This document shows positions 6,787-34,440 of a DNA stretch of 59,509 bases, one piece after another. The position numbers and the translations under genes are program-made. Origin of the DNA: a virus; IMG/VR virus record IMGVR_UViG_3300017781_000007, positions 1 to 59,509 of that record; one strand, given 5' to 3'. Each line of letters begins with the position of its first letter. Positions within the stretch are counted from its first letter, which is position 1. Below the pieces are notes generated by a model. That model had not been told where the DNA came from and did not search any database. It saw only the letters and a list, made by a program, of their open reading frames with translations.

Positions 6787-8199
6787 ATGAAATTTCAATA
6801 TAAAACACAACCTTTCCAACATCAAAGGGATGCATTGATAGCAGGAGCTAAACATCGTGATTATGCATATTTTATGGAAATGGGTACAGGTAAAACAAAA
6901 GTTGCAATTGATAACGCAAATTATTTTTTTAGAAATTCTTGGATAGATTGGGCAATAGTAATTGCACCTAATTCAGTATATCGTAATTGGATAAAAGAAA
7001 TTCAAACACACAGTCATGGAGCTGTCATACACGTACACAAAGACAAAGAAGTATATGGTGATAAACGTCATCCTGAAAGACATTTAAAATGGTTTTTAAT
7101 AAACGTAGAAGCACTATCCCATAAGTCTGGTGTAGAAAAACTAAGAGATATACTTTCTAGAAAGAATGTTAATCATCTGATGATTCTAGACGAATCCACC
7201 ACGATAAAAAACAGATCAGCAAAACGAACACGAAACATTTGTAAACTAGGGAAACTAGCAAACTACCGAAGAATCCTAACAGGATCACCAATAACAAAAT
7301 CTCCATTGGATCTATATACACAATGTGAATTCTTAAGTCCACAGCTTTTAGGTTTCGATTCATATTTTACTTTTAGAGCTAGATACGCAGTAATGCAGCA
7401 GATTGAAATGGGTGGCAAACAAATGCTTTTCCCTAAATATTATACTAATCTTGAGGAACTAACAGATAAACTTAGACACTTTTCATTCAGAGTACAGAAG
7501 AAAGATTGCCTAGATCTCCCCGATAAACTCTACACAATAAGAAAAATACAGCTTACGCTTAAACAAGCAGAGGTATACAACAGATTAAAGAAGTTTGCAT
7601 ATGCAGTAATCAATGATGATGAGGTAAGCTTTCAAAATAAACTTACAGAGATATTAAGACTGCACCAGGTAGCAAACGGGTTTGTTAATGCTGACGATGG
7701 TTCTGTACAGGTATTTGATGATTGTCCTAAGATCAAAGAATTAATGACCATATTGGATGAGTCCGAGGGTAAGTTTATAATATGGGCTAATTATGTACAA
7801 AATATAAAAACTATTATTAACAAATTGAAGGAGAAGTACGGTGCTGACTCTGTGGTTTCGATTTTTGGAGAAGTTTCAACTAAAGATAGGCAACAAGCTG
7901 TCGCCCGTTTTCAGGATGATGATAGCTGCCGTTTTTTTGTTGGTAATCCTTCCACTGGTGGTTATGGCCTCACCCTTACATCTGCTTCTTACGTGGTGTA
8001 TTTCAGCAATTCGTATAACCTGGAAGTACGTGAACAAAGTGAAGATAGAGCTCATAGGATCGGGCAAGACAAGAATGTAACTTACATAGATCTTATAGCT
8101 GATAATACTATCGATGAATTTATTGTTGGTGCTTTAGATAAGAAGATGAAACTATCAGCTCAAACTCTTGGTGAAGAAGTTAAGAAGTGGATAAAGTAG
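6787..8199 (+). CDS. SNF2-family (SF2) DNA translocase/helicase
   Basis: A 470-aa protein, the only large rightward gene. Motif I MGTGKT is at 32-37, IVIAPNSV (Ia) near 57-64, motif II DEST at 135-138 (a DEAH variant), motif III LTGSP at 164-168, and motif VI QSEDRAHRIGQ at 417-427, diagnostic of SNF2-like ATPases. It is compact, with few extra domains, as in phage relatives of SWI/SNF helicases. Probable role: ATP-dependent remodelling or branch migration during phage DNA replication or repair. Its end overlaps the convergent nuclease gene by 20 bases, so the two 3' ends could form antisense RNA. Confidence 0.92.
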   Translation: MKFQYKTQPFQHQRDALIAGAKHRDYAYFMEMGTGKTKVAIDNANYFFRNSWIDWAIVIAPNSVYRNWIKEIQTHSHGAVIHVHKDKEVYGDKRHPERHLKWFLINVEALSHKSGVEKLRDILSRKNVNHLMILDESTTIKNRSAKRTRNICKLGKLANYRRILTGSPITKSPLDLYTQCEFLSPQLLGFDSYFTFRARYAVMQQIEMGGKQMLFPKYYTNLEELTDKLRHFSFRVQKKDCLDLPDKLYTIRKIQLTLKQAEVYNRLKKFAYAVINDDEVSFQNKLTEILRLHQVANGFVNADDGSVQVFDDCPKIKELMTILDESEGKFIIWANYVQNIKTIINKLKEKYGADSVVSIFGEVSTKDRQQAVARFQDDDSCRFFVGNPSTGGYGLTLTSASYVVYFSNSYNLEVREQSEDRAHRIGQDKNVTYIDLIADNTIDEFIVGALDKKMKLSAQTLGEEVKKWIK

Positions 8200-8902
8200 A
8201 ATAGTATTGTTCTACCTTTTTAAACCATTTATCTTCATACTCAGATAACTTTGCTTGATCCATTTTAAAACCTTGAAACAATAAATCCTTAGTGCATACC
8301 GCTATAAATCCTTGCAAGATCTCGCCATGTTGTTTCTTATGTGCTAAACTATATGCTGCAATTTGATAGAAATAGTCCTCTATCCACTCTTCTCTCTTAG
8401 GTTTATTTGATTGTTTGAAGTCAATTATTGTAGGTTTATCATCAAAGATACCTACTAAATCTGTAGATCCTGCCCATTTATCCTCGTATGCTAGGTTTAC
8501 CTCGCTCCCATATATGGTCTTTAAAGGCCCTAAGCCGTCCTCTATGACATGATGAGCCATTAACCTGGCCTGAGCACCCTCTTTGGACAAATTGAAGTAT
8601 CCTACGCCGTTTATGTAATTTTCTAGTACATAGTGCATTTCTGTGCCTCTAGTGGCTGCCTGATTCATGATTCGTTGAGCTTCTTGATGACCAACTCTTT
8701 CTCTCCATGCATCGAGTCCTGCTTTCTTTTCTGGGCTTTGTGTTGCTGAAAGTATTGTTGTAACTGATGGAACTTTCTTTTCGCCTACTTTGTAGGTTCT
8801 TGGTCCGTTATCATCGTCTCGAAAGTAATTGCTATAAGAGTATTTATTATCCCACTTATAATCTGTAATCGTAAACTTATTCTCTTCTCGGATTATCTTC
8901 AT
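8180..8902 (-). CDS. PD-(D/E)XK exonuclease (RecB/Cas4/MGME1-like)
   Basis: A 240-aa nuclease. RGTEMH at 85-90 precedes the core AGSTD (144-148), DFK (161-163) and Q180-xxx-Y184, the arrangement of metal-dependent PD-(D/E)XK exonucleases related to RecB, Cas4 and mitochondrial MGME1. It probably processes DNA ends in replication or recombination. It shares the replication block with the polymerase-associated genes and is convergent with the SNF2 gene. All active-site residues appear present. Confidence 0.85.
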   Translation of the reverse strand: MKIIREENKFTITDYKWDNKYSYSNYFRDDDNGPRTYKVGEKKVPSVTTILSATQSPEKKAGLDAWRERVGHQEAQRIMNQAATRGTEMHYVLENYINGVGYFNLSKEGAQARLMAHHVIEDGLGPLKTIYGSEVNLAYEDKWAGSTDLVGIFDDKPTIIDFKQSNKPKREEWIEDYFYQIAAYSLAHKKQHGEILQGFIAVCTKDLLFQGFKMDQAKLSEYEDKWFKKVEQYYSTLSTS

Positions 8903-16702: not shown

Positions 16703-17461
16703 TCAGTCGATTTTATAGAATTCGTCCTTAACTTTACCAGTATACTTATACTCTCCAATATGGCTTATTTCTTCGTCACATAGAGCAAAAATCTTACCAC
16801 CAATAGCTCTCCAAAGTTGGCAGAAATAAAAATCTTCACCCATATAAGTTTTCTTAGACGGACTCCAATATGTATCAAAAAAGTTATAATAGTTTGGTCT
16901 ATCTATAAGCTCACCATTCATTAGAGTTTTTTGTTTAATAACAAGCTCTTTGTAGTGTTCTTTAAGCTTTTCAAATACAGATTTCTTTATCATCATCATG
17001 CCTGTAGGTCCTTTAATAACTTCAATATACCCATCCACAGGTCTAATATCTTTTGTATCTGGTATCTCAATAGGAAACAAATGACCCATAGTATTTATGT
17101 CATCATCAGGTCTTGTTTCAAAATCTTTTCTAAACTTAGCATCAGTCTTTTGTTTTATAGGATAAGGTATCAAAGATACGTCATGTGGTGATTTCATTAA
17201 TCTCATGACAGATCTAGTTGTAAACTCTACATCAGAATCAATGAACAACATATACTCTGCATCAGAATTCATAAAAGCAGAAGCACATAAGTTTCTACCT
17301 TGAGTTACGAGAGAAGACTTCATTAATTGAAAAGTAATTTTAATTTTATTTAAAATACATTCTTTTTGTAGATCTAGACAAGCTTTCATATAATGTATCG
17401 ATACATCAGAATGCACAGGTGTGCATATCATAATATGATTTTTATTTGTTTCGTTTGACAT
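16703..17461 (-). CDS. GT-A fold glycosyltransferase
   Basis: A 252-aa protein. HIMICTPVHSDVSIHYM at the N-terminus and LFIDSDVEF with D75-x-D77 (metal/UDP-sugar binding DxD) mark a GT-A glycosyltransferase of the GT2/anp1-like kind. YMGEDFYFCQLWRAIGG near residues 205-223 resembles the acceptor or base (ED) region. It overlaps the second glycosyltransferase gene by 20 bases. It may glycosylate a virion protein or host/virion glycan, as seen in other marine phages, but the acceptor is unknown. Confidence 0.85.
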   Translation of the reverse strand: MSNETNKNHIMICTPVHSDVSIHYMKACLDLQKECILNKIKITFQLMKSSLVTQGRNLCASAFMNSDAEYMLFIDSDVEFTTRSVMRLMKSPHDVSLIPYPIKQKTDAKFRKDFETRPDDDINTMGHLFPIEIPDTKDIRPVDGYIEVIKGPTGMMMIKKSVFEKLKEHYKELVIKQKTLMNGELIDRPNYYNFFDTYWSPSKKTYMGEDFYFCQLWRAIGGKIFALCDEEISHIGEYKYTGKVKDEFYKID

Positions 17462-18380
17462 GAATTGCTCCTTTTAAAAAGTTTGCCCAACTATTTGCAA
17501 TATACTTCCAATCATAAAATCTTCTGTAATACTCTTGTTGAAATTTTAAATGGCTCGATAAATCATTAGATAATATTTTTTTGGTTTGTAAAATACATTC
17601 TACTAATTGTGTCGTTAGTTTATCTTTGTTTTGTGTAAACGGTATATATATTGGAAACTCACAACAAGTTTCAGGTAAAGCACCTAGATCTGTAGTAACT
17701 AACATCTGACCTGCAGCTAATGATTCCATAGCTGATATACAAAAAGTCTCTTCCCAAATACTAGGAAAACAATTTACATCGTAATCTTTTAGTTTAGTTA
17801 ATAATGTTTTGTGATCGCAATAACCCATGTAATTAACATTAGGTAAGCTTTTTGCTTTTTCATATAATTTTTCATAACTTTTGTCATTATGATCATGAAA
17901 TTGTTTACCGTATATAATAGTGCTTGAATAAACATCTAATGTAATATCAGGATCATTTATCTTCTCCATCGCATTTAGAGCTACCTCAAGACCTCTCCAG
18001 GGTGTTGAGATATAGCACATTTTAATTTTTTGTTTTGGTGTGAAATCTGTTTTTAATTGCAACTCATCATAATCAATAGCATTTTTAATTACAGTACATT
18101 TATCTTCAGGTATCTTAAAAAAATATCTATACTTCTCAAAACTCCAATGAGAATTAAATACATACCAATCATACTTCTCATGGTTGTCCTTGTTTTGAAA
18201 CCATGGTGCTAGATTAGGCTGATCGTAAGAATTTTTTAGCCAAAGAATATTAGGTTTTAATGGATCTAAAGGTTCTTTCTCTGGTATTGAAGTTGTTATT
18301 TGGACTGAAGAAAGCACACCTTCGTCAACGTACTTTTTAAGATATCCGAGTTGTATTTCAGTACCGCCTGCTGGTTGCAT
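17442..18380 (-). CDS. GT-B fold glycosyltransferase (GT4-like)
   Basis: A 312-aa protein. AGGTEIQ at 4-10 is the N-terminal acceptor-domain signature, and FPSIWEETFCISAMESLAAG around 205-224 is the C-terminal E-x7-E nucleotide-sugar motif (E211 and E219). It is shorter than typical GT4 enzymes (about 360-400 aa), missing part of the N-terminal Rossmann domain, yet the donor site looks complete. It is paired with the GT-A enzyme by overlap, suggesting sequential addition of two sugars. Confidence 0.85.
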   Translation of the reverse strand: MQPAGGTEIQLGYLKKYVDEGVLSSVQITTSIPEKEPLDPLKPNILWLKNSYDQPNLAPWFQNKDNHEKYDWYVFNSHWSFEKYRYFFKIPEDKCTVIKNAIDYDELQLKTDFTPKQKIKMCYISTPWRGLEVALNAMEKINDPDITLDVYSSTIIYGKQFHDHNDKSYEKLYEKAKSLPNVNYMGYCDHKTLLTKLKDYDVNCFPSIWEETFCISAMESLAAGQMLVTTDLGALPETCCEFPIYIPFTQNKDKLTTQLVECILQTKKILSNDLSSHLKFQQEYYRRFYDWKYIANSWANFLKGAIHVKRNK

Positions 18381-18610
18381 TATGATTTGGTTTTACCAAA
18401 TACTTCAAGAGATGCAACTGTTATTTTCTGATTAATTTGTAAATCATCTGAAGTAGTATCAGTACCGGGATCAGCAACATCAGAATCAAAATGATCTTTG
18501 CTATCATATTTTTGTCCTGTTCTTTTGTTTACGACCTCTTCTTCTGCTTTCGCTGGAAAAACTGGTACTTCTTCTCCATTGATAATTACTGTTTTTTGTT
18601 TTTCACTCAT
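18380..18610 (-). CDS. Hypothetical acidic protein (76 aa)
   Basis: A polar, acidic protein with VIINGEEVPVFPAKAEEEVVN near the start and an Asp/Ser/Thr-rich middle (SDVADPGTDTTSDDLQ). No recognisable domain. It ends at the start of the GT-B gene and begins in a TAATG overlap with a tiny basic gene. Probably expressed as part of the tail/glycosyltransferase operon. Confidence 0.55.
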   Translation of the reverse strand: MSEKQKTVIINGEEVPVFPAKAEEEVVNKRTGQKYDSKDHFDSDVADPGTDTTSDDLQINQKITVASLEVFGKTKS

Positions 18611-18738
18611 TATCGTCCTTGTCGGTTATATTTCTTATAACATCTTTTCTTGTGTTTGTTAAGAGTCTTAGTATGGCGACGTGGCCTTTTCCTAGGTTTT
18701 GGCCTAGGCACGAAGTGGGTAAATTTAACTCTAGCCAT
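18610..18738 (-). CDS. Tiny basic protein (42 aa)
   Basis: Reads MARVKFTHFVPRPKPRKR then RRHTKTLNKHKKR to the end; very rich in Lys and Arg. I recognise a small phage family with the signature HFxPRPKPRKRPxRH. Its stop forms TAATG with the next start and its own start overlaps the upstream stop, which supports real translation. Possibly nucleic-acid binding; unproven. Confidence 0.7.
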   Translation of the reverse strand: MARVKFTHFVPRPKPRKRPRRHTKTLNKHKKRCYKKYNRQGR

Positions 18739-19081
18739 TTTCCTGTGATCTATCTATTAGTGCATATGTTATAGCACCTTGGATTTTATTACTGCCTGTA
18801 GCTGCTTGAACTGTAACTGCATCACCAGCCTCTAAATTTAATGTTTGTGGTGTAGCATTTACTTGAGTTTTAGCTCCAACATCATCTCTAAAAAATTCGT
18901 ACTCAGCACTCGAATCAGAAGAATCTACTAAATTCATGTTTACAAGAATTGCTGAAGAAGCATCATTGTTTGCAACATAGATACTTTTTACAATAATTGT
19001 TGCATTTGCTGGACATGTCAGCACTGTCGTTTTTGTTGTGCCCGATTGTTTGTATCCTTGGTTTTTATATTGAATTGTCAT
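18731..19081 (-). CDS. Small beta-rich virion protein
   Basis: A 116-aa protein with alternating hydrophobic/Thr-rich strands (TTVLTCPANATIIVKSIYVA; LEAGDAVTVQAATGS), the pattern of small jelly-roll or Ig-like phage structural proteins. The similar layout in the 26995-27360 and 35502-35822 genes suggests related decoration or tail proteins. No enzymatic motif. Confidence 0.6.
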   Translation of the reverse strand: MTIQYKNQGYKQSGTTKTTVLTCPANATIIVKSIYVANNDASSAILVNMNLVDSSDSSAEYEFFRDDVGAKTQVNATPQTLNLEAGDAVTVQAATGSNKIQGAITYALIDRSQENG

Positions 19082-19242
19082 GATAAAAAATAATTAAAAG
19101 CTTCGCTATCGTTTTTTTGTTCTCTTTGGTAAGATGTATTTAATTGATTCTGTAATGTTTCCAAAGCCAAATTGATTTGTCTAAAAGAATCAGTGCTAAA
19201 CTCTATTGGCGGTTCAGGTAAAAATACTTGTACTTTAGCCAT
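19078..19242 (-). CDS. Small protein between tail genes (54 aa)
   Basis: ATG at 19242 overlaps the stop of the gp10-like gene (TAATG), and its TGA overlaps the next ATG (ATGA). It contains VFLPEPPIEFSTDSFRQIN followed by a Gln/Asn-rich helix. Linked overlaps at both ends are good evidence of translation. Likely a tail-associated small protein; function unknown. Confidence 0.6.
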   Translation of the reverse strand: MAKVQVFLPEPPIEFSTDSFRQINLALETLQNQLNTSYQREQKNDSEAFNYFLS

Positions 19243-21161
19243 TATCTTCTTCCATCAGGTTGTATGTCAAATCTAAATTGTCCAAATCTCCAACTTTGAT
19301 TAACTCCATCATTTTCTACTTTTACTGCTGCAAGCCTAGCTCTTGCTCTTGTGTCTACCTTACTCGTAGATGAGTTAACTGTAAATGGCCCTAAGGGTGA
19401 GCTAGCCTGTGTTTGAGATGGAAAATCTCTTAATGTAAGCGTTACTTTTGCATTGCCATTTATGTATTTAAAATCTGGTATAAATCTTCTTATCTTAATA
19501 AAGAACTCACCATCACCTTGAGAATCTAAATCAAAATCTCCAGAAAGAATAAATGCAGGAATTGCGTTAATAGTTCCATTCGCTAGAACTTCGTTTCTAC
19601 CAACTTCATGGTTAAATACCTGTGAGGAACCTTCAGAGACACCTTGAATTACAGGTGTTGTTGGTGCAACATTGTTTGTAAACTCTGTAGCTATTGGATC
19701 GTTAAATACTTTTGTATCAGTATATGTTGTTCTTGCTAAGGTGCTAGTGTACCAAGTTTGCTCAGCATAGTTATACGCAACTAATTTATTTACGAAATTT
19801 GAATTAGATGCTGCATAAAACCAATAGATTTCAGAGTACAAACTATTTTGTGAAGCATAGCAAAGTTCACTTCCACTAGCAAAATTAAATCCGGGTGCAT
19901 TATCTTCTGTAGTAAATACAAAATCTTCAACAAGTGATGGTAAAGCTTTTACCGTTCCGTCAAACATAAAGAAACCACCTGAGTTCCCTATCCAATATAC
20001 TGCACCGTTTGCATATACAATTGCGTGTTGACCGACACATCCACAATTAGAACCAACTTGTCGAATACTAAATGTAAATGGTGGACCTACAAACTGCATT
20101 AAGTATGCGGATGTATCTGTAAGAATTAGAGTATAGTCCTTACCTTTTACAGCACCAACAATTTTTGTTCCGCTGTCGATTCGCATCGAACCTGCAGTAT
20201 TTGTAGAAGTCGCTGTGTAGGTAGTAAGACTCTCTTGGTCTGAGAATCTTATGAACATTTTATCTTGTGTTGCTATATTACCAATTGTTGTTTCTGTTCC
20301 TAAATGTATTAGGTGTCTATCTTTGTCAGAAACCAAAGTCATTACAGATTTAGTTGGAGCTCCCGATAATACAACTGCTCTTGTATTAATACCGTTACCG
20401 CTATCTGGATCCCATTGTAATGTTACTCCATTCTTTACTGTTGCAATAAGCAACTCACCATAATTATCTAATGACCAAGAACCTGGATCTAAAACTGCAG
20501 ACGAAGTTGATCTAGGTGTACCCCAAGTTGATCCACCCCATAGTGCAGTTCCCCAACCAAAACCGAAACCTTGTAGTAATGGACCTATTTGAAAATAAGC
20601 TTTAAGATCTAATGTTCCGTTGTTTGTAGTGCCTGAACCTGATTCTGCACTAGGCATTAAAATTGTAAAAGTTGTAGATGTTGGAGCTAACTGTACTTCA
20701 AATAATACATTATCAAAATCAGATGCAACAAATCCTGTTTGTGCTGCATTGAAAGATCCAGCGTTAACAAACGATACGATGTCGCCTGGTTCGAGGTTGT
20801 GGGGCGCTGAAGAAGTAATCGTTACAGTTCTTGAAGCGCTAGTTGTTGTGATGTTACAACCTGACTGAGCCAAGGCTGTGTTGAAAGGTGTGATGTCATA
20901 ATAATCATCACCATTGTAAATGTACAAAGCTTTGTTTGTACCGATAGCAAGGTATCTTCTTCCTGCTAAATCTGACCAACTGTGAATATCTCTTCCTGCA
21001 CCTACTAGTTTAGAGTCTTTAATCTCATCCCAACCACCAATCTTTTCAGGCATTCCGTATCTAAATCTTACAAAGTCTCCGTCAACCCATTGGTTTTCGG
21101 CTCCTGACTCAGAAGCTTGTTTATTGAAACCAGGTGCAAAATTTACTTTAGTTAATGGCAT
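19242..21161 (-). CDS. P22 gp10-like tail hub / DNA stabilisation protein
   Basis: A 639-aa protein beginning MPLTKVNFAPGFNKQASE with GDFVRFRYGMPEKIGGW soon after, the hallmark of phage proteins annotated as packaged-DNA stabilisation protein (P22 gp10 class). The rest is beta-rich, Thr/Ser-heavy, as expected for a beta-propeller-like tail hub. In P22-type phages this protein closes the portal channel after packaging. Here it lies between the oxygenase cluster and the glycosyltransferases, which is unusual for a core tail gene. Confidence 0.8.
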   Translation of the reverse strand: MPLTKVNFAPGFNKQASESGAENQWVDGDFVRFRYGMPEKIGGWDEIKDSKLVGAGRDIHSWSDLAGRRYLAIGTNKALYIYNGDDYYDITPFNTALAQSGCNITTTSASRTVTITSSAPHNLEPGDIVSFVNAGSFNAAQTGFVASDFDNVLFEVQLAPTSTTFTILMPSAESGSGTTNNGTLDLKAYFQIGPLLQGFGFGWGTALWGGSTWGTPRSTSSAVLDPGSWSLDNYGELLIATVKNGVTLQWDPDSGNGINTRAVVLSGAPTKSVMTLVSDKDRHLIHLGTETTIGNIATQDKMFIRFSDQESLTTYTATSTNTAGSMRIDSGTKIVGAVKGKDYTLILTDTSAYLMQFVGPPFTFSIRQVGSNCGCVGQHAIVYANGAVYWIGNSGGFFMFDGTVKALPSLVEDFVFTTEDNAPGFNFASGSELCYASQNSLYSEIYWFYAASNSNFVNKLVAYNYAEQTWYTSTLARTTYTDTKVFNDPIATEFTNNVAPTTPVIQGVSEGSSQVFNHEVGRNEVLANGTINAIPAFILSGDFDLDSQGDGEFFIKIRRFIPDFKYINGNAKVTLTLRDFPSQTQASSPLGPFTVNSSTSKVDTRARARLAAVKVENDGVNQSWRFGQFRFDIQPDGRR

Positions 21162-21193
21162 AAGCGTATTTTACACCATTATGTAAGGTTTGT

Positions 21194-21751
21194 CTAAATG
21201 GTTAAAGAACTGATATTGTCCATAAATGTATTATTTATATTAAAATTTATAATACATCGTACAGATTTTGTTGGTTGGTAAGCTGTATGCAGGATAGACC
21301 CATCAAAGATAGCAACCCGCCCTTGTTTAGGCATAACTTTTTTAATGACCTTGTTTTTAGAGTTAAAAAATATTGTTTCTCCTTCTGAATCACATACATA
21401 ATATAAAACTATCGTATAAGGTTTGTCATATTTTGGCATGTCTATATGTGGAGTATCGTACTCCTTATACAAAGGATTTGGAAACTGTAAAAATGAATTA
21501 GCTCTCAATACAAGAAGATCTGATCTGTTAAACTTTTTGACAACAGGTAAAATATTTTCAAGATAATTAGAGTTTAAACCTTTTATATAATTAAAAAACT
21601 CATGTTGCACTGCAGGTCTATTTTGATCTCCTGCATTTGTTACATCCTGAATGAAGAACCAAGGAAATATTCTTTCTCTACCAATCATTAAATCTTTCAA
21701 TTCGTTTTGTGTTTGTAATGGTATAAAATTATCTATTACTTTAATGTTCAT
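21194..21751 (-). CDS. 2OG-Fe(II) oxygenase-like protein A
   Basis: A 185-aa double-stranded beta-helix protein. The facial triad appears as H102-x-D104 (TPHIDMPKYDKPYTIVLYY) and H155 (GSILHTAYQP), with R165 placed to bind 2-oxoglutarate. It would hydroxylate (or otherwise oxidise) a still unknown substrate using Fe(II) and O2. It is last in a leftward run of five such genes that also contains a halogenase; the ATGA overlap with protein B suggests co-translation. Confidence 0.8.
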   Translation of the reverse strand: MNIKVIDNFIPLQTQNELKDLMIGRERIFPWFFIQDVTNAGDQNRPAVQHEFFNYIKGLNSNYLENILPVVKKFNRSDLLVLRANSFLQFPNPLYKEYDTPHIDMPKYDKPYTIVLYYVCDSEGETIFFNSKNKVIKKVMPKQGRVAIFDGSILHTAYQPTKSVRCIINFNINNTFMDNISSLTI

Positions 21752-22365
21752 GATAATTTGAAATCTAAGTTAAGAGTTTGTCTTGTGCCCTTAGTTTGTG
21801 GATATGATCCATGCCATAACCATATAGGAAATATAATAAGATCTCCTATTTTTGGTTTGTATGAATAATATTTTATGTATTCATTATTTAGAACGCAATA
21901 AAAATTGTTGGCATCTTTATGTTTCTTCTCATACTTAGGCACGTCTAAATAGACTACAGAGGCTACCTCTAAATTTTTCTTTTCAACACTTATTTTGTTT
22001 TTGTAATTATGTTTGTGCAAAGTATGATATGTATGCTCTTCTCCTATTACAGTCCAACCTGAAATATATTGTAAGTTAAAATTATGGTTGAATTTTAAAT
22101 GTAAAGCTTTTTGTACTTCATCTCTAATGTAGTGAAAATATTTTTGTGATGGTGTAGGTAACCCTGCATTATATTTTATTTGTGAAAAGATATCGTATTG
22201 TTTTGATAATCCTCCCGAAGTAGATCGTTCTCCAACATTTACTTCGATTGATTTTTTTGTAAGTTTATTAATTTGTGTCTTCAAACCTTTTACATTTATA
22301 TTACTTATAATTATCCAATCTGTGCTAAATGTAGAAGAGATTGAAGGATAATGCGTATTTGTCAT
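21748..22365 (-). CDS. 2OG-Fe(II) oxygenase-like protein B
   Basis: A 205-aa protein. THTLHKHN-type histidines (H114, H117, H119) precede VASVVYLDVP, and GDLIIFPIWLWHGSYPQ gives H185 with R195 in the expected position. This HxH... arrangement resembles the putative 2OG-Fe(II) family in which the usual HxD is replaced by a different spacing. Iron binding is likely but less certain than in A and E. It overlaps protein C by 41 bases. Confidence 0.7.
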   Translation of the reverse strand: MTNTHYPSISSTFSTDWIIISNINVKGLKTQINKLTKKSIEVNVGERSTSGGLSKQYDIFSQIKYNAGLPTPSQKYFHYIRDEVQKALHLKFNHNFNLQYISGWTVIGEEHTYHTLHKHNYKNKISVEKKNLEVASVVYLDVPKYEKKHKDANNFYCVLNNEYIKYYSYKPKIGDLIIFPIWLWHGSYPQTKGTRQTLNLDFKLS

Positions 22366-22831
22366 TTGATTTATTCCTGGTTGTGTAATGGCTTAAAAGA
22401 CCAGAGAACAATACTAACAAACCCTTTTGAGGTTTGATAACCTGATCTATTTGATCAAAATGTAATTCTTGATCACAATCATCTAAATAGACAACACCTG
22501 AAGCAAAGCTTGGTCTGTGATTATGATCTATTGTTCTCTCATCGTAGCATTGTTTTATTCCCCATGCATTGTGTAATTTCCATTTACCTTCATTTGTTTT
22601 CTTTTCTATTATGTCTCTTACAGGACGAAAAATTTGTTTGGTGAATACCTCATCATCACAGAAAAAATTCCAAGCTGTCATTTTAGATTGAACGTTTGAT
22701 TGATAATTTCTATTTGATTTGTGTGCAATACCTTCTTCAATTCTATGCTTAAAATATTTAATATCAATTTTTATTTTATCTACAAATAAAAATACAGGTT
22801 GTTCAATATAAGTTTTAATCTCTTTTTGCAT
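22325..22831 (-). CDS. 2OG-Fe(II) oxygenase-like protein C
   Basis: A 168-aa compact protein. IDHNHRPSFASGVVYLDD supplies D102, H103 and H105, and LLVLFSGLLSHYTTRNKS supplies the distal H148 and R152. The beta-strand pattern of a cupin-like double-stranded beta helix is visible. It is shorter than its neighbours and diverged, so substrate and even activity are uncertain. Overlaps the halogenase gene by 17 bases. Confidence 0.65.
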   Translation of the reverse strand: MQKEIKTYIEQPVFLFVDKIKIDIKYFKHRIEEGIAHKSNRNYQSNVQSKMTAWNFFCDDEVFTKQIFRPVRDIIEKKTNEGKWKLHNAWGIKQCYDERTIDHNHRPSFASGVVYLDDCDQELHFDQIDQVIKPQKGLLVLFSGLLSHYTTRNKSNDKYALSFNLFYI

Positions 22832-24341
22832 GTATTTTTGTTAGCACATCAATTAATTTTGGTTTAGTCAATGCAACTTCTTTCCATCTTTTTATTGCTC
22901 GTTCTCTTTCTGTTATATCTTTACCATATTTATCTACAAGCCAATCATTAGTTTTTTCTTTCAAATAATTTTCTGCAGCTAATGCAATATCATCTGTTGG
23001 AAATCTATACATACCAGTCGCAATACATTGCAGTCCTGTTTCACTATAATAGTTATAATTATTTTTATGTTCAATTAATCTTTCAATATCATAGCTACCC
23101 ATCTTTTCTTTAGCTATAGATTTGTTTGTAAGATCTCTCCAATATTGAGTATCATCTCTTGCTGACATGTAATAATGCACAGCTACAAATTCTGCAAAAC
23201 GATCAAAGGTACCTTTACAGCAATGGTTAAACTCATCTCTATCTAATTGATTTACATTAGGTCTTCTTAATGTTCTTGCTAATTCAATAAGAAATTCATG
23301 TACAGTAAACAAACCATTACTTTCTAACGGTTCAATGAAACCTGCAGATAATCCTATTGCAACTACATTTTTTACAAAAATCTTTTCATGCATACCTATT
23401 CTCATTTTAATATTGTTAGCTTCTATATCTTCTTTACCTAAATGTTTTTTAAATTGTGCCAAAGCATCTTCATCACTTATGTATTTATCCGAATAAACAT
23501 AACCTGTGCCAATTCTATTCCAACTTGGTATTGTCCAAATCCAGCCGTTCTCTACAGCTTTGCAATTTGTATAAGGCACTAATTGTTTTTCTTTATCCTC
23601 GTAAGGTATTCTTGTAGCCCATGCGCTATTGTTTGGTAAAAGGTTTTCATAACTTTTAAAAGGTACTTTTAAATTTTCTCCGAGTAATAATGATTTGAAA
23701 CCTGTGCAATCAATATATAAATCAGCCTTGTATTTATTGTTTAGAGATACAACACCATTTTCATCTTGTTCTACAGAATCAATATCATCGATTATGTGCT
23801 CAACGCCTTCAGGTATACATATTTTTTCTTTAAGCCATTGTCCAAACTTTGTTGCATCAAAATGATAAGCCGTATCGTCGGCAAATGAAAAATTACCAAG
23901 TTCTCCATCTTTGTTTATACCTATTCTATTATATTTAACTAATTGCATTTGTGGATATAAAAAGTTTGCATAATTCGAAACCATTGTGTTTCGTTTTAAC
24001 ATTTTTTTAAAATACCAAGTGTTCTTTCCAGACCATAAATTATCTTCGCAAGGTAGTCCAAACGGATAATGAAAACTCTCGTCCTTCCTATAGAAGTCTT
24101 CAAACCTTATACTTAGTTTATAACTTCCATCTGTATATGGTAAAAAATCTTTATCTTTAATTTTAAGTAAAGATAACCATTGGTTTATTGTTCCTAATGT
24201 GCTCTCTCCTACACCAACTATTTTATGATTTTTAGATTCTATCAATGTAATCTTTTTACTAGGAAACAATTTAATAAGGGTTGCAGCGGTCATCCATCCA
24301 GATGAACCACCTCCTACGATAACAATTTTATTAATCTTCAT
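22815..24341 (-). CDS. Flavin-dependent halogenase (tryptophan-halogenase family)
   Basis: A 508-aa protein. The FAD motif VIVGGGSSGWMTAA is at 7-20, SYKLSIRF contains K75 in the place of the catalytic lysine that makes the haloamine (K79 in RebH), and GWIWTIP at 266-272 is the family hallmark that excludes monooxygenation. GLSAGFIEPLESNGL at 330-344 is the conserved flavin/halide region. I chose the ATG at 24341 rather than 24389 because the FAD motif then sits at the normal distance. A viral member (VirX1, from a cyanophage) halogenates varied small substrates, so free tryptophan need not be the target. A partner flavin reductase is not seen here. Confidence 0.9.
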   Translation of the reverse strand: MKINKIVIVGGGSSGWMTAATLIKLFPSKKITLIESKNHKIVGVGESTLGTINQWLSLLKIKDKDFLPYTDGSYKLSIRFEDFYRKDESFHYPFGLPCEDNLWSGKNTWYFKKMLKRNTMVSNYANFLYPQMQLVKYNRIGINKDGELGNFSFADDTAYHFDATKFGQWLKEKICIPEGVEHIIDDIDSVEQDENGVVSLNNKYKADLYIDCTGFKSLLLGENLKVPFKSYENLLPNNSAWATRIPYEDKEKQLVPYTNCKAVENGWIWTIPSWNRIGTGYVYSDKYISDEDALAQFKKHLGKEDIEANNIKMRIGMHEKIFVKNVVAIGLSAGFIEPLESNGLFTVHEFLIELARTLRRPNVNQLDRDEFNHCCKGTFDRFAEFVAVHYYMSARDDTQYWRDLTNKSIAKEKMGSYDIERLIEHKNNYNYYSETGLQCIATGMYRFPTDDIALAAENYLKEKTNDWLVDKYGKDITERERAIKRWKEVALTKPKLIDVLTKIHAKRD

Positions 24342-25005
24342 TAGTTTTTCTGTAGAATGCTGGAAAACCTGGTGCAGGTCTGCCATCAAATTTATTAGCT
24401 AAACCTCTTTGTGTATTTTCCTGGTAATGTAAAAATACTTGACCACATTTCTCTCCTTTGAACTCTTCTCTCCAATGCTCACAATCAATACCATTATAAA
24501 CCAACATATCCCCAGGTGCTAAATTAACTTTTACACCTTTACTATCACTCATAATATATTTACCTTCAGGTGATTTATTTCCGTAAGTGCTATCAGGCTC
24601 AATGTATATTGGCCATGGATCCCCACCAAGATTGAGTGTAGTTGATATACCACAACTAAATCTGTCTTTGTGTTTAGGTAAGATAGACCCCCTTCTATAC
24701 AATCTTGTGTAAGAATAATTAGGTATTAGTTGAAGCTTTGTAAGCTTTTCCATTTTACCTTTTAATTTTAGTAATAATGTTTCCATTACAAAATCACCAT
24801 AACAACAATATGTCTCTGGTATATTCACTTGTTCGTTAGTACCAAAGGTACCTAAATCTGTATTAAATGGTTCAAGGTATTTATCCTTAAATAGATTATC
24901 TACAACGTTTGATTTTAGAACAAGATAGTTATAAATAAATTCTGCAAACTCTTTGCTTATTGCTTTCTTAATTACAAAATAATTTTTTTGTTTAAATTGG
25001 TTCAT
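24331..25005 (-). CDS. 2OG-Fe(II) oxygenase-like protein D
   Basis: A 224-aa protein starting at an ATGA overlap (25005-25002). LPKHKDRFSCGISTTLNLGG gives H112-x-D114, and APGDMLVYNGIDCEHWREE gives H177. The usual 2OG-binding arginine is not obvious (Lys/Gln follow), so this member may differ in co-substrate. A proline-rich C-terminus (GRPAPGFPAFYRK) follows. The last 11 bases overlap the halogenase start, suggesting coupled expression. Confidence 0.75.
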   Translation of the reverse strand: MNQFKQKNYFVIKKAISKEFAEFIYNYLVLKSNVVDNLFKDKYLEPFNTDLGTFGTNEQVNIPETYCCYGDFVMETLLLKLKGKMEKLTKLQLIPNYSYTRLYRRGSILPKHKDRFSCGISTTLNLGGDPWPIYIEPDSTYGNKSPEGKYIMSDSKGVKVNLAPGDMLVYNGIDCEHWREEFKGEKCGQVFLHYQENTQRGLANKFDGRPAPGFPAFYRKTNED

Positions 25006-25616
25006 TTGAATGGCCATCCTACACTCCACATTACTAGAGAGTATCTTGTTCCATGTGTTACAGGTCTTATCTTGTGTAATAAATCAGCTGGAAACACTAC
25101 AGCATCTCCTGCGTTTTGCATTTCATAAACAGTTCTTGTAGGTTCTTTTCTATTGCCGAAGTCCACTTCGAACTCTCCACCTTTGTATTCATTGAAATCA
25201 CTTAATAACACTGACATAGATAATTTTCTAGCCTTACCGTTTAAATAAGGTTTGTCTTGTTTTTCATAAGCACCTACAAAAGCATCTTCATGCCAATCAT
25301 AATGCATACCTGGTTTATAGATTGTAAATTGTACAGGTTCAGCAGAATCAATTTGAAAATTCCAATTTGCTAATCTGTTTGCATTTTCAATAATTCTGTA
25401 AAGTTTAATATTTAACCATTTCTCTTCAAGCCAATCTACATTGCTTTTTCTTATTACAGGATTGACAACCTTACCCCGTTTATTATCCCCAACTTCAGCA
25501 TCATGAGATTGCCCTTTTGCTAAACCATATTTAATTATGTTTTGACAAAGATGTTTAGGAAATGCGTTTCTAAAATAGATATATTTGTGCTTTAAGACCA
25601 TGCAGAACTTTAGCAC
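25002..25616 (-). CDS. 2OG-Fe(II) oxygenase, PKHD/P4H-like (protein E)
   Basis: A 204-aa protein and the clearest of the five. YKPGMHYDWHEDAF gives H105-x-D107, ARKLSMSVLLSD and YKGGEFEVDFG are the core strands, and GDAVVFPADLLHKIRPVTHG gives H181 with R191. This is the canonical layout of PKHD-type (Fe,2OG) hydroxylases, many of which hydroxylate prolyl or other protein residues. First gene of the oxygenase/halogenase run, 27 bases downstream of the glycine-rich fibre gene. Confidence 0.85.
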   Translation of the reverse strand: MLKFCMVLKHKYIYFRNAFPKHLCQNIIKYGLAKGQSHDAEVGDNKRGKVVNPVIRKSNVDWLEEKWLNIKLYRIIENANRLANWNFQIDSAEPVQFTIYKPGMHYDWHEDAFVGAYEKQDKPYLNGKARKLSMSVLLSDFNEYKGGEFEVDFGNRKEPTRTVYEMQNAGDAVVFPADLLHKIRPVTHGTRYSLVMWSVGWPFK

Positions 25617-25642: not shown

Positions 25643-26506
25643 TTAACTGCTTGACCAATTACCTGCTGCAACTAAATCTAAAACTTCAGATAAAGTCCAT
25701 ACTCCAGAAGCTCCAGCAAATCCACCTGGTTCTTTGAATACTGCATATCCACCTTGGCCTGAATAAGATCCTGACCTTACAGGTCCGTGGCTTCCTCCGC
25801 CACCGCCTTGGTTGTTACCACCCGCTGCAGTTGAGCCTCCTCCAGGAGTTGGGGGACCTGATCCTCTTCCGCCTGCTCCTCCAGAAGCATAGTGTGTTTG
25901 TGATGGTGAATCTGTTGGACTCGCTATATCAAATTGTTTTCCTTGGCCTCCTGTGTTTCTAGGAGAGGCTGTACCGCCTGATCCGCCTCCTCCAGCTCCG
26001 GGGTCTCCACCCGATCCGCCTGGATTTCCGTGTCCTGTAAAAGGACCACTTGGACTTTGTTGACCTGGACCTGGAGATCCTGGACCTCCTGCGTGTCCTG
26101 CTCCTCCGCCCGATCCTCCAGCGCCGCCACCAGAGTTTCCTCCGTGTCCCGCACCGAAACCACCGCCAAGTGCAGTGTGTCCATCAAATGTAGATTGTCC
26201 TCCAGCTGAACCTGGAAAGTTTTGTGGGCCGCCACCGCCGCCTCCGCCACCGCCTCCAATTGAAACTGGATAAGGTGATCCATTAAGTGGGTGCTCAGGA
26301 GAGTGCAATAAGCCTCCCGCTCCGCCTCCACCACCTCGGTTTGGGCCTGCTCCACCGCCACCGCCAATTAATAAAACTTCGGCAGTTGCTGCAGATGGGT
26401 TAAAAGTACCTGATGAAGTAAAAGTTGTAATTTGTTCTGCTGATACTTGTGGATCGTTGTTTGGACCAATGACACCACCATTATTAAAATATTGTCTATT
26501 TGGCAT
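25643..26506 (-). CDS. Glycine-rich fibre/adhesin-like protein
   Basis: A 287-aa protein. TTFTSSGTFNPS and AEVLLIGGGGGAG near residues 28-55 form the N-terminal motif of phage glycine-rich domain proteins. Residues about 50-250 are mostly Gly with Pro, Ser and Asn, and the last 40 residues return to ordinary sequence (GVWTLSEVLDLVAAGNW). Poly-Gly regions of this type build the receptor-binding tip of T-even gp38 adhesins, so a receptor-binding role is plausible. It precedes the oxygenase genes directly. Confidence 0.7.
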   Translation of the reverse strand: MPNRQYFNNGGVIGPNNDPQVSAEQITTFTSSGTFNPSAATAEVLLIGGGGGAGPNRGGGGGAGGLLHSPEHPLNGSPYPVSIGGGGGGGGGGPQNFPGSAGGQSTFDGHTALGGGFGAGHGGNSGGGAGGSGGGAGHAGGPGSPGPGQQSPSGPFTGHGNPGGSGGDPGAGGGGSGGTASPRNTGGQGKQFDIASPTDSPSQTHYASGGAGGRGSGPPTPGGGSTAAGGNNQGGGGGSHGPVRSGSYSGQGGYAVFKEPGGFAGASGVWTLSEVLDLVAAGNWSSS

Positions 26507-26976
26507 TATTCATTCTCCCATGTGTTACTTGAAGTATTATACACTTGAACTACTTCAGGTGTAATAATATCTCCTTCTGAATCTATTTGCTTTCTAATCA
26601 GTCTCATTGGATCTTCTTCCCAAGTAACTTCGTATTCATTTCCGCTTTCATCAGTTGATAATGATTGGTCGATTAATGGCCATGGTTCTGGTGGACCATA
26701 AATCAAATCAGTTCCATCTAACTTCCAAGTGTTTGGAAAAGTATTGACGTTTGCAAACTTGGACATGGCAGGAATATAAAAACCATTTATCCAATGTTTA
26801 CCTTCTTCTGCTTCGATGTATGAATGTCCATCATTTTGGAAAGATTCAACAAACTCAACTGTAGCGTCATCCTCAAATAAGACACTATTAAGCACTTGTT
26901 TACCAGTAATAGAACCTGTGTCCCTTAAAGGTAATGTAGTTTCGTTGTTGTCTATCTTAACAAAGATTTTGGCCAT
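26506..26976 (-). CDS. Hypothetical tail-module protein (156 aa)
   Basis: An acidic, Trp-containing protein with GPPEPWPLIDQSLSTDESG in the middle and VVQVYNTSSNTWENE at the end. No known domain recognised. Its stop overlaps the start of the glycine-rich fibre gene by one base. Likely a fibre accessory or chaperone; inference from position only. Confidence 0.55.
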   Translation of the reverse strand: MAKIFVKIDNNETTLPLRDTGSITGKQVLNSVLFEDDATVEFVESFQNDGHSYIEAEEGKHWINGFYIPAMSKFANVNTFPNTWKLDGTDLIYGPPEPWPLIDQSLSTDESGNEYEVTWEEDPMRLIRKQIDSEGDIITPEVVQVYNTSSNTWENE

Positions 26977-26994
26977 AACGATTACGACCTCCTA

Positions 26995-27360
26995 TTAACT
27001 TAATTCTTCGTAATTAATAGTGATCACTAAATCTGAGTTTGCTCCTGCGCCTGCTTCAATGTTATCGCCTTCTTCAAGATAAAGAGAAGTGTTTTTATCG
27101 ATAACTGTTAAAGTAGAGTCTGCTGGTACAGAAATTGTAGAAGCAATTGCTATTGGTGATCCACCTGACTTTGTAATAAATACAGATGCATCAGCAGCAT
27201 TTGTTCCATCAATGTTTGCTACTAAGATATTGTTAATTTTAAACACTTTGTTTGAAGATCCTGCATTAGCAAGAATCTCAGTTGTAAGTGTTGTATCCAA
27301 CGCAGCTTGTTTTGATTTCGCTGTGATCGTTGCTACGTTTACTAGGTTTGGTGCCGCCAT
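26995..27360 (-). CDS. Small beta-rich virion protein
   Basis: A 121-aa protein with Thr/Ala/Ile-rich strands (KVFKINNILVANIDGTNAAD; LYLEEGDNIEAGAGANSD). The 'LxxGDxIxAxA' pattern recurs in the 18731-19081 gene, so the two may be paralogous tail or capsid decoration proteins. No enzymatic motif. Confidence 0.6.
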   Translation of the reverse strand: MAAPNLVNVATITAKSKQAALDTTLTTEILANAGSSNKVFKINNILVANIDGTNAADASVFITKSGGSPIAIASTISVPADSTLTVIDKNTSLYLEEGDNIEAGAGANSDLVITINYEELS

Positions 27361-27385: not shown

Positions 27386-28036
27386 TTAACCAAAAACTAA
27401 AGCCATTGCAATGGCTTTACCTGTTGTTGCGACGTCGCCGAAAGATAAATTTCCAGCTCCATCTGTTTTTAAACCATTTCCTGATGAACCATCAGCAGTA
27501 GGTAGATTTAAAGTAAAGCTTGATCCGACAGTTGCCGCAGCTCTTAGGCCAACATACTCACCACCTGTAGCGTCTTCAAATCTCACTTCATTTCTGTTTA
27601 CTAGATTTACTCCAGACGATTTGCTTAAGATATCATTTACATTTGTACCATCAGCAAAAAGAATTTTAGTTCCTTTGTCTGTTGTAGAAAAAGTTGGACC
27701 TGTTCCTGATACAGTTTTAAACTGAACCGTGAAAGCTCCTGTTGTTCCATTCTCAACGATGTAAGTTTTTTCAATTGAATCTGGAATAGTTACAATTTGG
27801 TTTCCTGTAATAGTACCTGTTAATTTAATAACTGCATTTCTTGCGTTTGAAATCGTTCCATTAGTCATCACTAAGGCAGTAGTTTGAGCTCCACCTGCAA
27901 TTGATATTGATTCAAATCCAGCAACTGCTTGTTGTACTAGGTTTAAGTTTGCGTTAGTTTTATCTCCCCATGTTCCAGAGTTTTCCCCTGTTACCATTAG
28001 TTCGAGTTTTAAATCTGTCGAATAACTTGATGCCAT
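27386..28036 (-). CDS. Tail fibre-like protein
   Basis: A 216-aa protein beginning MASSYSTDLKLELMVTGENS then GTWGDKTNANLNL, a start I recognise from many marine-phage fibre-like proteins. The rest is Thr/Ser/Gly beta-rich. Likely a trimeric fibre or baseplate-associated shaft segment. Adjacent to the WG-repeat protein. Confidence 0.65.
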   Translation of the reverse strand: MASSYSTDLKLELMVTGENSGTWGDKTNANLNLVQQAVAGFESISIAGGAQTTALVMTNGTISNARNAVIKLTGTITGNQIVTIPDSIEKTYIVENGTTGAFTVQFKTVSGTGPTFSTTDKGTKILFADGTNVNDILSKSSGVNLVNRNEVRFEDATGGEYVGLRAAATVGSSFTLNLPTADGSSGNGLKTDGAGNLSFGDVATTGKAIAMALVFG

Positions 28037-28074: not shown

Positions 28075-29592
28075 TTACGCTGCCTTGTCAACTACCGTCC
28101 ATGTTGGACTCGCTCCAGGGTCAACAACAGCCCATGCATTTATCCCCATTATACCAGCTGTTACTGTTCCTGTCACTCCTGTTGGAGTTGCAGTAATACT
28201 TATTCCTGCTAAATAATCACCAATAACTATAGGGCCTAATGCTTGACCTGTTACAGAAACCCTTACATTAGTAAATGCATCTTCGTCACCTAATGCTGTT
28301 TGTAATAATCCAGCAGTTGTAACAACAACATTTGCGTCTGCTTTAATTGATTCCTGACCAACACTGATTGCAAGAGTTACTGGTGTAACATCTACTTCTA
28401 CTGATGGGACAGCTACTTCCTCACCACCTTGTGAAATATCAGTTCCTACACCTTGACCCCATTCTCCTACGCCCCAAATTTGTTCACCCCAACGTGAAGC
28501 TGATGCAGTTGTAACAGGAACAATTACTAACTCTCCACCAAATGCACTATTTTGAGCAACGGTTGCTTGAGCTCCTGTAAATTCATATATTGAAGCTTGA
28601 CCTAGAGTTCCTAACGATCCTGTTGCCGATACTCCAGTTGGTGAAGCTGTTGCTGCACCCGTTTGAACTGTATCTGTTCCAACAAATATTGTGATTCCGT
28701 CTCCAACTCCCCAGAAACCTTGACCCCAAGATTCAGTGCCCCATTCATCATTAACAGGACTTGTTACTTCAACTACAACTAACTCACCTGCAAAAGCACT
28801 TGTTTGTTGTGCAGCAAGAGTTACTCCTGTGATGTTTGGATCTACCGAAGTTCCTGCAACAGCGTTAGTTAATGCAATGGTTCTACCGATACCTGTTACA
28901 CTAACATTTGCGTCTGCCGTGTTTGATTCATCTCCTAGTGAAACTGATAATTGTCGACCTGTGACACCGACAGTAGGGTTAGCTAAATCTCCCCAATTGT
29001 TTGCACCCCAAGTTAATCCACCCCAACCAATATTAATTTCATTTGTAATAGAAACTGAAGCGAGTGTTAAAGTTAACGCTTGGCCTGTTGCTTCAGCATC
29101 AGGTTCAGGATCTGCATTACCTTGAGTGATTGTTAAATTTTGACTTGCAGCGACTACAGCTACATCGATCTGAACACCTTCGTTACCAACCGAAGAAGCT
29201 ATTGAAAGCGCTGTTGGACTTATGTCTGCATCTGCAGTTGTAGTTACACTTTGAACAGCAGATTGAATTAATTGTGAACCTGCAAGAACATCACCAAATA
29301 TACCCCAACCATTTTCGCCCCAAGCACTTCCGCCCCAACCAGCATTGATTTCACCTGTTACGGATTCGTCTCCTTGAGATATAGTTAATTGGACTCCTGA
29401 AGGTTGTCCGAAAGCATCTGTTAGGTTACCCCAAACGTTAAATCCCCACGTTTGTCCACCCCAACCATCAACGTTGAAGGCGTCTTCTGTTCCTATTGAT
29501 AAAGATATGACGTTGCCACTTGGGGCTACAGAGTTAACATCACTCTGCCATGAGTTCGATCCCCATACATTAGTCCCCCAAGTAGACGCCAT
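28075..29592 (-). CDS. Trp-Gly-repeat fibre-like protein
   Basis: A 505-aa protein with six WG triads separated by Thr/Val-rich beta segments: residues 5-15, 44-55 (GWGGQTWGFNVWGN), 86-97 (GWGGSAWGENGWG), 190-201 (GWGGLTWGANNWGD), 284-295 (EWGTESWGQGFWG) and 368-379 (RWGEQIWGVGEWG). It lacks enzymatic motifs and is rich in Val, Thr and Ala, as expected for a fibre. Clustered exposed tryptophans are unusual and may bind glycans or be modified. Tail-module context supports a virion role. Confidence 0.65.
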   Translation of the reverse strand: MASTWGTNVWGSNSWQSDVNSVAPSGNVISLSIGTEDAFNVDGWGGQTWGFNVWGNLTDAFGQPSGVQLTISQGDESVTGEINAGWGGSAWGENGWGIFGDVLAGSQLIQSAVQSVTTTADADISPTALSIASSVGNEGVQIDVAVVAASQNLTITQGNADPEPDAEATGQALTLTLASVSITNEINIGWGGLTWGANNWGDLANPTVGVTGRQLSVSLGDESNTADANVSVTGIGRTIALTNAVAGTSVDPNITGVTLAAQQTSAFAGELVVVEVTSPVNDEWGTESWGQGFWGVGDGITIFVGTDTVQTGAATASPTGVSATGSLGTLGQASIYEFTGAQATVAQNSAFGGELVIVPVTTASASRWGEQIWGVGEWGQGVGTDISQGGEEVAVPSVEVDVTPVTLAISVGQESIKADANVVVTTAGLLQTALGDEDAFTNVRVSVTGQALGPIVIGDYLAGISITATPTGVTGTVTAGIMGINAWAVVDPGASPTWTVVDKAA

Positions 29593-34079: not shown

Positions 34080-34440
34080 TTTCTCTAACCTTATCTTTTA
34101 ATTTTTCAATATCTTCCAATGCTTTATCTAACTGTTCTCTTAAAAATTCTATATTAACTTTATTAGTCATATTCATTTCTTGAGTTTCTTCCATTTTTTC
34201 TACAGTCTTATAAAGATCCTCTATCAAAAAATGTTGTTCTTGATCCGTAGGGACTTGCTCACTTTTTTTAAGCAAATCATTTGTAAATAATTCTCTTGAT
34301 GTCTCTAACGATACCAACCTCGCCGTCAGCTCTGTGTAACCGAGCACGCCCATTCCAACAAGAATTATAAGGCTAGCAACCGTTTTCATCGGCATCTGTA
34401 CTGCAGCCGACTCCGATATATTTAAAGGTTTTTTACTCAT
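34060..34440 (-). CDS. Membrane protein with coiled coil (lysis candidate)
   Basis: Taken from the ATG at 34440 (126 aa) because earlier codons lie inside the upstream gene. One transmembrane helix (about 20-38, VASLIILVGMGVLGYTELTA) is followed by a long charged coiled-coil domain (about 75-122, EEFQ/KE-rich). The topology resembles i-spanins or class III membrane lysis proteins. It lies three small genes upstream of the M15 endolysin. Function inferred. Confidence 0.55.
   Translation of the reverse strand: MSKKPLNISESAAVQMPMKTVASLIILVGMGVLGYTELTARLVSLETSRELFTNDLLKKSEQVPTDQEQHFLIEDLYKTVEKMEETQEMNMTNKVNIEFLREQLDKALEDIEKLKDKVRENGSKNY

Follow-up and report, generated by a model that had tools for sequence, protein, structure and literature searches.

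The viral record IMGVR_UViG_3300017781_000007 of IMG/VR, analysed here over its full 59,509 bases (the window), carries in its tail region a compact block of enzyme genes that adjoins the gene for a predicted glycine-rich tail adhesin. The record is a relative of the HTVC023P-type pelagiphages, with homologous tail and replication genes in a similar order, and includes portal, terminase, DNA polymerase and helicase genes; no near-identical DNA was found among phage records. A sequence-only reading of positions 16703–25616 had described five 2-oxoglutarate (2OG)-Fe(II) oxygenase genes, a flavin-dependent halogenase gene and two glycosyltransferase genes, all leftward and overlapping. Pfam and PHROGs searches of the open reading frames (ORFs) of the window, with a motif and a structural model for OX4, upheld all five oxygenases and the halogenase in place on the minus strand. 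OX1 (21194–21751; Pfam 2OG-FeII_Oxy_3, 3.2e-6; phrog_274), OX2 (21748–22365; 2OG-FeII_Oxy_5, 8e-8), OX3 (22325–22831; 2OG-FeII_Oxy_5, 1.6e-8), the VirX1-like flavin-dependent halogenase HAL (22815–24389; Trp_halogenase, 1.6e-103), OX4 (24331–25029) and the PKHD/prolyl-hydroxylase-like OX5 (25002–25616; 2OG-FeII_Oxy_3, 1.1e-13) form six contiguous genes, each overlapping its neighbour. Profiles of all oxygenase and halogenase clusters revealed no further genes of these kinds in the 59.5-kb window. G+C content is 28–34% in the enzyme genes, compared with about 37–52% in structural genes and 36% for the genome.

Gaps of only ∼30 bases separate the block from a tail gene on one side and from the adhesin gene on the other. 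The tail gene, TAIL (19242–21161, minus strand; phrog_3287, 3.7e-84), encodes a conserved tail/virion structural protein with 54% identity to that of HTVC023P and 51% to that of HTVC027P; one relative carries the annotation 'stabilization protein'. The adhesin gene, GLY (25643–26506, minus strand), and a chaperone-like gene, c46 (26506–26976, minus strand), lie just beyond 16703–25616. GLY encodes a 287-aa glycine-rich (polyglycine-type) protein (Pfam Gly_rich_2, 1.2e-11) in which conserved or invariant glycine blocks alternate with hypervariable loops (24 homologues). It is poor in Lys/Arg and, by sequence, had no match in the PDB. Its AlphaFold2 model (predicted local distance difference test (pLDDT) 75.8; predicted template modelling score (pTM) 0.75) was closest in Foldseek to the fiber of cyanophage Pam3 (7ypx, E = 7.9e-6) and then to the mycobacteriophage Bxb1 tail tip, with template modelling (TM) scores of about 0.4–0.5. 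From the glycine/hypervariable pattern, the modelled fold match and the position, we infer that 25643–26506 encodes a tail adhesin.

When GLY was assessed as a polyglycine-II (gp38-like) protein, the sequence pattern and the Gly_rich_2 domain were present and the fold match, at a moderate TM of 0.42–0.48, was to the Pam3 fiber. GLY thus shares glycine blocks and hypervariable loops with the gp38 adhesins of T2-type phages, S16 and PP01, where they form the receptor-binding tip (PMC12892980). Unlike those adhesins, its best Foldseek match is the Pam3 fiber, gp38 was absent from its sequence and Foldseek matches, and the accessible text of that source describes no tailoring enzymes for gp38. The adjoining c46 product (∼156 aa), placed by position, by a motif seen by eye and by island maps, is similar to the Trp/Pro-rich c11 proteins found together with GLY in relatives. 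A c11 relative gave no convincing Pfam match; a chaperone or assembly role for c46 is plausible.

Oxygenases and halogenase

In OX5, residues H109, D111, H181 and R191 are invariant among 31 homologues, and its profile matched PKHD hydroxylase (3dkq, 1.8e-14), PiuC, prolyl-4-hydroxylases (P4H) and PHD2 in the PDB. OX4 belongs to a family labelled ferrochelatase (phrog_2954; T4-GC 615 in cyanophages). It had no Pfam match, and hence no Pfam ferrochelatase match. Residues H120, D122 and H185 (HxD...H) are invariant in 35 homologues, and the AlphaFold2 model (pLDDT 91.6; pTM 0.88) is a confident jelly-roll whose top Foldseek matches were a Pseudomonas putida P4H (4iw3, 2.4e-8) and a Dictyostelium PHD. 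All 50 hits listed were non-heme 2OG enzymes, and no ferrochelatase was among them. Judged by this motif and a modelled jelly-roll that matches 2OG enzymes, the OX4/phrog_2954 'ferrochelatase' is a misannotated 2OG-Fe(II) oxygenase, and the count of five oxygenases therefore stands. The top fold match, a bacterial P4H solved with EF-Tu (PDB 4iw3/4j25), is likewise a small 2OG enzyme, and acts on protein; in contrast, it is only ∼13% identical to OX4 and has a different substrate, and the activity of OX4 is a prediction.

The HxD...H motif is also invariant in an alignment of OX1 homologues. Thus, tested as members of the 2OG superfamily, OX1, OX4 and OX5 all keep the iron triad HxD/E...H, and a double-stranded beta-helix is modelled for OX4. 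For OX2 and OX3, membership is taken from Pfam (2OG-FeII_Oxy_5, over the cut-off), and the simple HxD...H pattern occurs in only 28–44% of the members of the OX3, OX2 and C0 clusters. Mislabelling of these families is widespread: an OX4 homologue is present in 154 phage records, many of them naming it a ferrochelatase, and OX1 relatives (phrog_274) are often called 'DNA endonuclease V'.

The closest solved relative of HAL is VirX1 (PDB 6qgm, 1.6e-113). Catalytic K91 and E353, together with W283 and P288, are present in 59/59 phage sequences, and the phage sequences that were compared also conserve the flavin adenine dinucleotide (FAD) motif GxGxxG and the W(x)W(x)IP motif. Because alignments begin at residues 17–20, translation probably starts at Met17, near 24341. 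HAL looks intact and is predicted to be a flavin-dependent (tryptophan-type) halogenase. It retains the motifs and the catalytic Lys and Glu of VirX1 and the PrnA-like cyanophage halogenases; those enzymes were previously known from large myoviruses, whereas HAL belongs to a small podovirus and lies inside an adhesin-linked oxygenase block.

A variable island at a fixed site

Eighty relatives were fetched with the TAIL gene alone as query, so that enzyme content was not selected for. In these phages the region between two conserved flanks, TAIL on the right and the fibre-like protein FIB on the left (27386–28036, minus strand; phrog_31104; recognised in complete islands), forms an island of about 4–8 kb. 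Scattering of the enzyme genes in relatives, which would have counted against the sequence-only reading, is the opposite of what is seen: oxygenases, with or without a halogenase, occupy this one site. Among 39 complete islands, which include cultured relatives and outgroups, 38 contain oxygenases (up to nine per island) and 13 a halogenase, five of these 13 being near-identical to the window. Removing near-duplicates and two outgroups left 32 non-redundant HTVC023P-type islands, a count that excludes the four closest relatives, which came from the halogenase search. Their 304 genes of at least 100 aa comprise 176 oxygenases, 9 halogenases, 12 transferases, 81 structural or chaperone-like genes and 26 genes classed as unknown. 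The transferases are five sulfo-, two carbamoyl- and five methyltransferases (one tentative); Pfam supports them, although only weakly in the case of one sulfotransferase group and not at all in that of one putative methyltransferase. None of the genes in the 32 islands was recognised as a photosynthesis, carbon or nucleotide auxiliary metabolic gene (AMG).

Most islands start with the glycine-rich adhesin; some start with a tail-collar protein (PF07484, 1.5e-22) followed by an inverted enzyme block, and in the tail-gene tree the latter fall on two distinct branches. Tail proteins that are 95–98% identical flank adhesins of 43–71% and enzymes of about 44–58% identity, which argues that the adhesin and the enzymes change in concert while the backbone stays stable. 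OX4 and OX5 covary (Mantel r = 0.55, p = 5e-4), and neither covaries with the tail gene.

Two halogenase lineages, only 21–30% identical to each other, are both found in HTVC023P-type islands; by this comparison, two unrelated lineages entered the same island. We rejected a recent acquisition of HAL from bacteria: bacterial relatives are at most 37% identical, except for one at 50% from a deltaproteobacterial metagenome-assembled genome (MAG). Bacterial halogenase loci lack the adhesin/oxygenase context, with an oxygenase at 6/58 and a glycine-rich ORF at 0/58. On the MAG contig (L261, JABDFK010000005.1) the phage-type halogenase stands alone: neither oxygenases nor obvious phage genes lie near it. 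Elsewhere, an otherwise typical island (L029) encodes, at 7412–8650, a very divergent halogenase-like protein ∼21% identical to that of the window, and an environmental contig (L169) has a single oxygenase block that includes three halogenase genes and runs convergently to a glycine-rich gene.

The linkage extends to other phage families, where oxygenase blocks likewise lie beside tail-fibre genes, in at least five contexts: HTVC023P-type phages, HTVC033P, two positions in T4-like cyanophages, HTVC008M and Mosig. A glycine-rich protein, often with a ∼150-aa gene, is found with one or more halogenases, several oxygenases and the 'ferrochelatase' in syn9, S-RIM44, P-RSM6, P-TIM40, S-CREM1, Sf-CH11 and Sf-FP1. 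The arrangement occurs without an adjacent halogenase in S-SM1, P-RSM4, ACG-2014b, Mosig and HTVC033P, and in HTVC008M a few genes separate the halogenase from the block. Across 27 named-phage regions, a glycine-rich ORF accompanied 15/17 regions with at least three oxygenases and 1/10 with two or fewer (Fisher 1e-4). The remaining two of the 17 have a tail-collar protein (HTVC027P) or the gp12 short tail fibre (S-PM2), so that all 17 blocks adjoin fibre genes. An independent environmental sample agreed: a glycine-rich ORF was within 6 kb of 44/78 viral halogenase loci and 0/80 transaldolase control loci (Fisher 5e-18), or 30/40 against 0/29 for loci with at least 9 kb of flank. Oxygenase density was 4.76 per 10 kb at halogenase loci and 1.25 at transaldolase loci.

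The two proposed glycosyltransferases fared differently. Beyond the tail gene, GT4 (17442–18380, minus strand) is well assigned (Pfam Glycos_transf_1, 4.9e-13), and the GT2-like gene (16703–17461, minus strand; phrog_1574) is a weak assignment (Anp1, 1.4e-4, under the Pfam cut-off). Both belong, with the terminal helicase gene, to the downstream order shared with HTVC023P-type phages, and every relative whose sequence reaches far enough downstream has both (12/12), irrespective of which enzymes its island carries. Oxygenase blocks also occur without annotated glycosyltransferases nearby, for example in 023Pt_psg01 and HTVC033P. The view that both belong to the same pathway as the block is therefore not supported; they are clade-core genes that may act on the target of the cassette.

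Proposed adhesin tailoring and competing explanations

We propose that the island is a swappable cassette for post-translational tailoring of the tail adhesin, and give this an even chance of being correct. The fixed site holds, besides an adhesin or collar protein, 2–9 small oxygenases of the non-heme Fe(II)/2OG type; a halogenase is often present and a transferase sometimes. For OX4 and OX5, prolyl hydroxylases and PKHD enzymes, which modify proteins, head the structural and profile matches. The sequence-only reading had suggested a virion or surface-glycan modification pathway. Fixed-site co-occurrence and fibre-gene linkage favour, short of proof, the virion part of that suggestion, with the adhesin as target, over a generic metabolic role. 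The block would be co-transcribed late with virion genes, and OX1–OX5 would add hydroxyl groups to side chains of the freshly synthesised adhesin; in phages carrying transferases, some of these hydroxyls would be capped. The halogenase, using host-supplied FADH2, would halogenate an aromatic residue or another electron-rich group. Receptor binding, stability or recognition could change once the loops are decorated, and the exchange of enzyme sets would add chemical diversity to a binding surface that is already variable in sequence.

A viral parallel is the hydroxylation and glycosylation of collagen in Mimivirus (L230 lysyl hydroxylase; PMC9546862), where 2OG hydroxylases and transferases acting on hydroxylated residues likewise serve glycine-rich proteins. 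That system belongs to another virus realm, is a single, biochemically demonstrated collagen pathway and has no halogenase, and we use it as an analogy only. More broadly, and more tentatively, since we rate it somewhat below an even chance, abundant marine phages of several families may diversify receptor-binding adhesins chemically through interchangeable groups of enzymes encoded beside the adhesin gene (hydroxylases, halogenases, and sulfo-, carbamoyl- and methyltransferases). Host recognition by ocean phages would then involve enzymatically modified adhesins that sequence-based host-range prediction cannot see, a second, non-genetically-encoded layer of tail diversification beside sequence hypervariability. 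For phage halogenases, the tail adhesin is a concrete candidate substrate. The adhesin link, the halogenase within the block and adhesin tailoring were not found in the openly readable literature; most subscription papers fell outside the search, and we do not assert priority.

Several observations weigh against adhesin tailoring. Collar-type islands lack the glycine-rich adhesin, and covariation between adhesin and enzymes was weak and not significant (Mantel r = 0.17, p about 0.08), so this test did not support their coevolution. Pro-Gly occurs 317 times in the adhesins, where 353 are expected, so that it is not enriched and a simple collagen-like X-Pro-Gly target rule fails. Whether or not an island carries a halogenase makes no difference to the Trp/Tyr content of the adhesin, the WG-repeat protein, the chaperone-like protein or the tail gene. 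Nor are the families confined to an adhesin role: halogenases lie away from fibres in S-H35 and S-MbCM6, and solitary OX4-family members adjoin or lie near dam, clamp-loader and regA genes in the replication modules of P-SSM7, S-ShM2, S-CAM22 and S-P4 (loci L343, L345, L349 and L350), which suggests a second, separate role for them. Finally, the counts across phages are inflated by shared ancestry and are not independent.

The published view treats such genes as AMGs: the oxygenases would redirect the nitrogen or energy metabolism of the host by consuming or modulating 2OG or iron, and the product of the halogenase would be a protective halogenated metabolite. Cyanophage oxygenases have been linked to 2OG/NtcA nitrogen control (PMC3037559), and halogenases, as speculation, to protection from antibiotics (PMC2984593). 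Wittmers et al. 2022 (PMC9599517) described co-located 2OG oxygenases and 'ferrochelatases' as partner AMGs in HTVC023P-type phages, a pairing repeated in a 2024 time series (PMC11561400). Their lineage, enzyme families and co-location are those seen here; in contrast, the accessible text of that paper mentions no halogenase and no link between block and adhesin, and we reassign the 'ferrochelatase' to the 2OG oxygenases, with which the heme side-branch usually attached to the AMG reading falls. Many family members do sit outside fibre loci. Yet one 2OG sink would be enough, whereas each island holds 2–9 divergent enzymes, always by fibre genes and sometimes accompanied by sulfo-, carbamoyl- or methyltransferases. 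These data point to the tail adhesin as the place of action, and we consider a metabolic role unlikely.

Somewhat less probable again is that the enzymes and glycosyltransferases act on a host glycan, lipid or peptide produced in the course of infection, which might, for instance, prevent superinfection or put competitors at a disadvantage. Transferases, oxygenases and halogenases together resemble natural-product or glycan tailoring sets, two glycosyltransferases are close by, and VirX1 is reported, in a title cited in PMC10452541, to halogenate diverse substrates. Against this, the cassette is tightly packed and no gene for a precursor synthase or a peptide was recognised in it, the glycosyltransferases stay constant whatever the enzyme set, and protein hydroxylases are among the nearest structural relatives of OX4 and OX5.

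We regard it as improbable that the blocks are passenger cargo, accumulating at adhesin regions as recombination hot spots without serving the adhesin. That the one site turns over very fast, with blocks inverted and gene order mixed, would fit, as would the weak adhesin–enzyme covariation, but random cargo would be mixed, whereas the contents are nearly purely of one functional kind in all complete islands, and the block recurs in unrelated phages and has recruited two halogenase lineages. TET- or AlkB-like oxidation of phage DNA bases, for which one could cite the solitary OX4 homologues beside or near dam and clamp-loader genes, a very weak OX4 profile match to a TET-like enzyme (E = 0.33) and the repair role suggested for syn9 oxygenases (PMC2984593), is very improbable, given that multi-enzyme blocks go with fibres and not replication genes, that a halogenase and sulfotransferases do not fit and that the best OX4 fold matches are prolyl hydroxylases.

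Further observations

The window also encodes, at 28075–29592, a 505-aa virion-region protein that is very rich in Trp, with repeated WGxxxWG motifs. It was rejected as a HAL substrate, its Trp/Tyr content not differing with or without a halogenase. In the same comparison the histidine content of adhesins was higher and that of the WG protein lower, at uncorrected p-values of 0.02–0.03 among many tests, and we make no claim from it. Between FIB and the adhesin gene lies c27, a 121-aa gene (26995–27360, minus strand) placed from island maps.

Among relatives, the adhesins are expanded in L064 (2424–7446), which encodes 897- and 589-aa multi-domain glycine-rich proteins, and in HTVC023P (L085), which has four glycine-rich paralogues. 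A NodU/CmcH-type carbamoyltransferase is found in L023, L024, L025 and L036, sulfotransferases in L022, L024, L027, L036 and L043, and methyltransferases in L056, L063, L066 and L074. Outside the cassette, PHROGs identified PAPS-reductase-like and ferredoxin-like genes at 188–1039 and 34433–35083 of the window.

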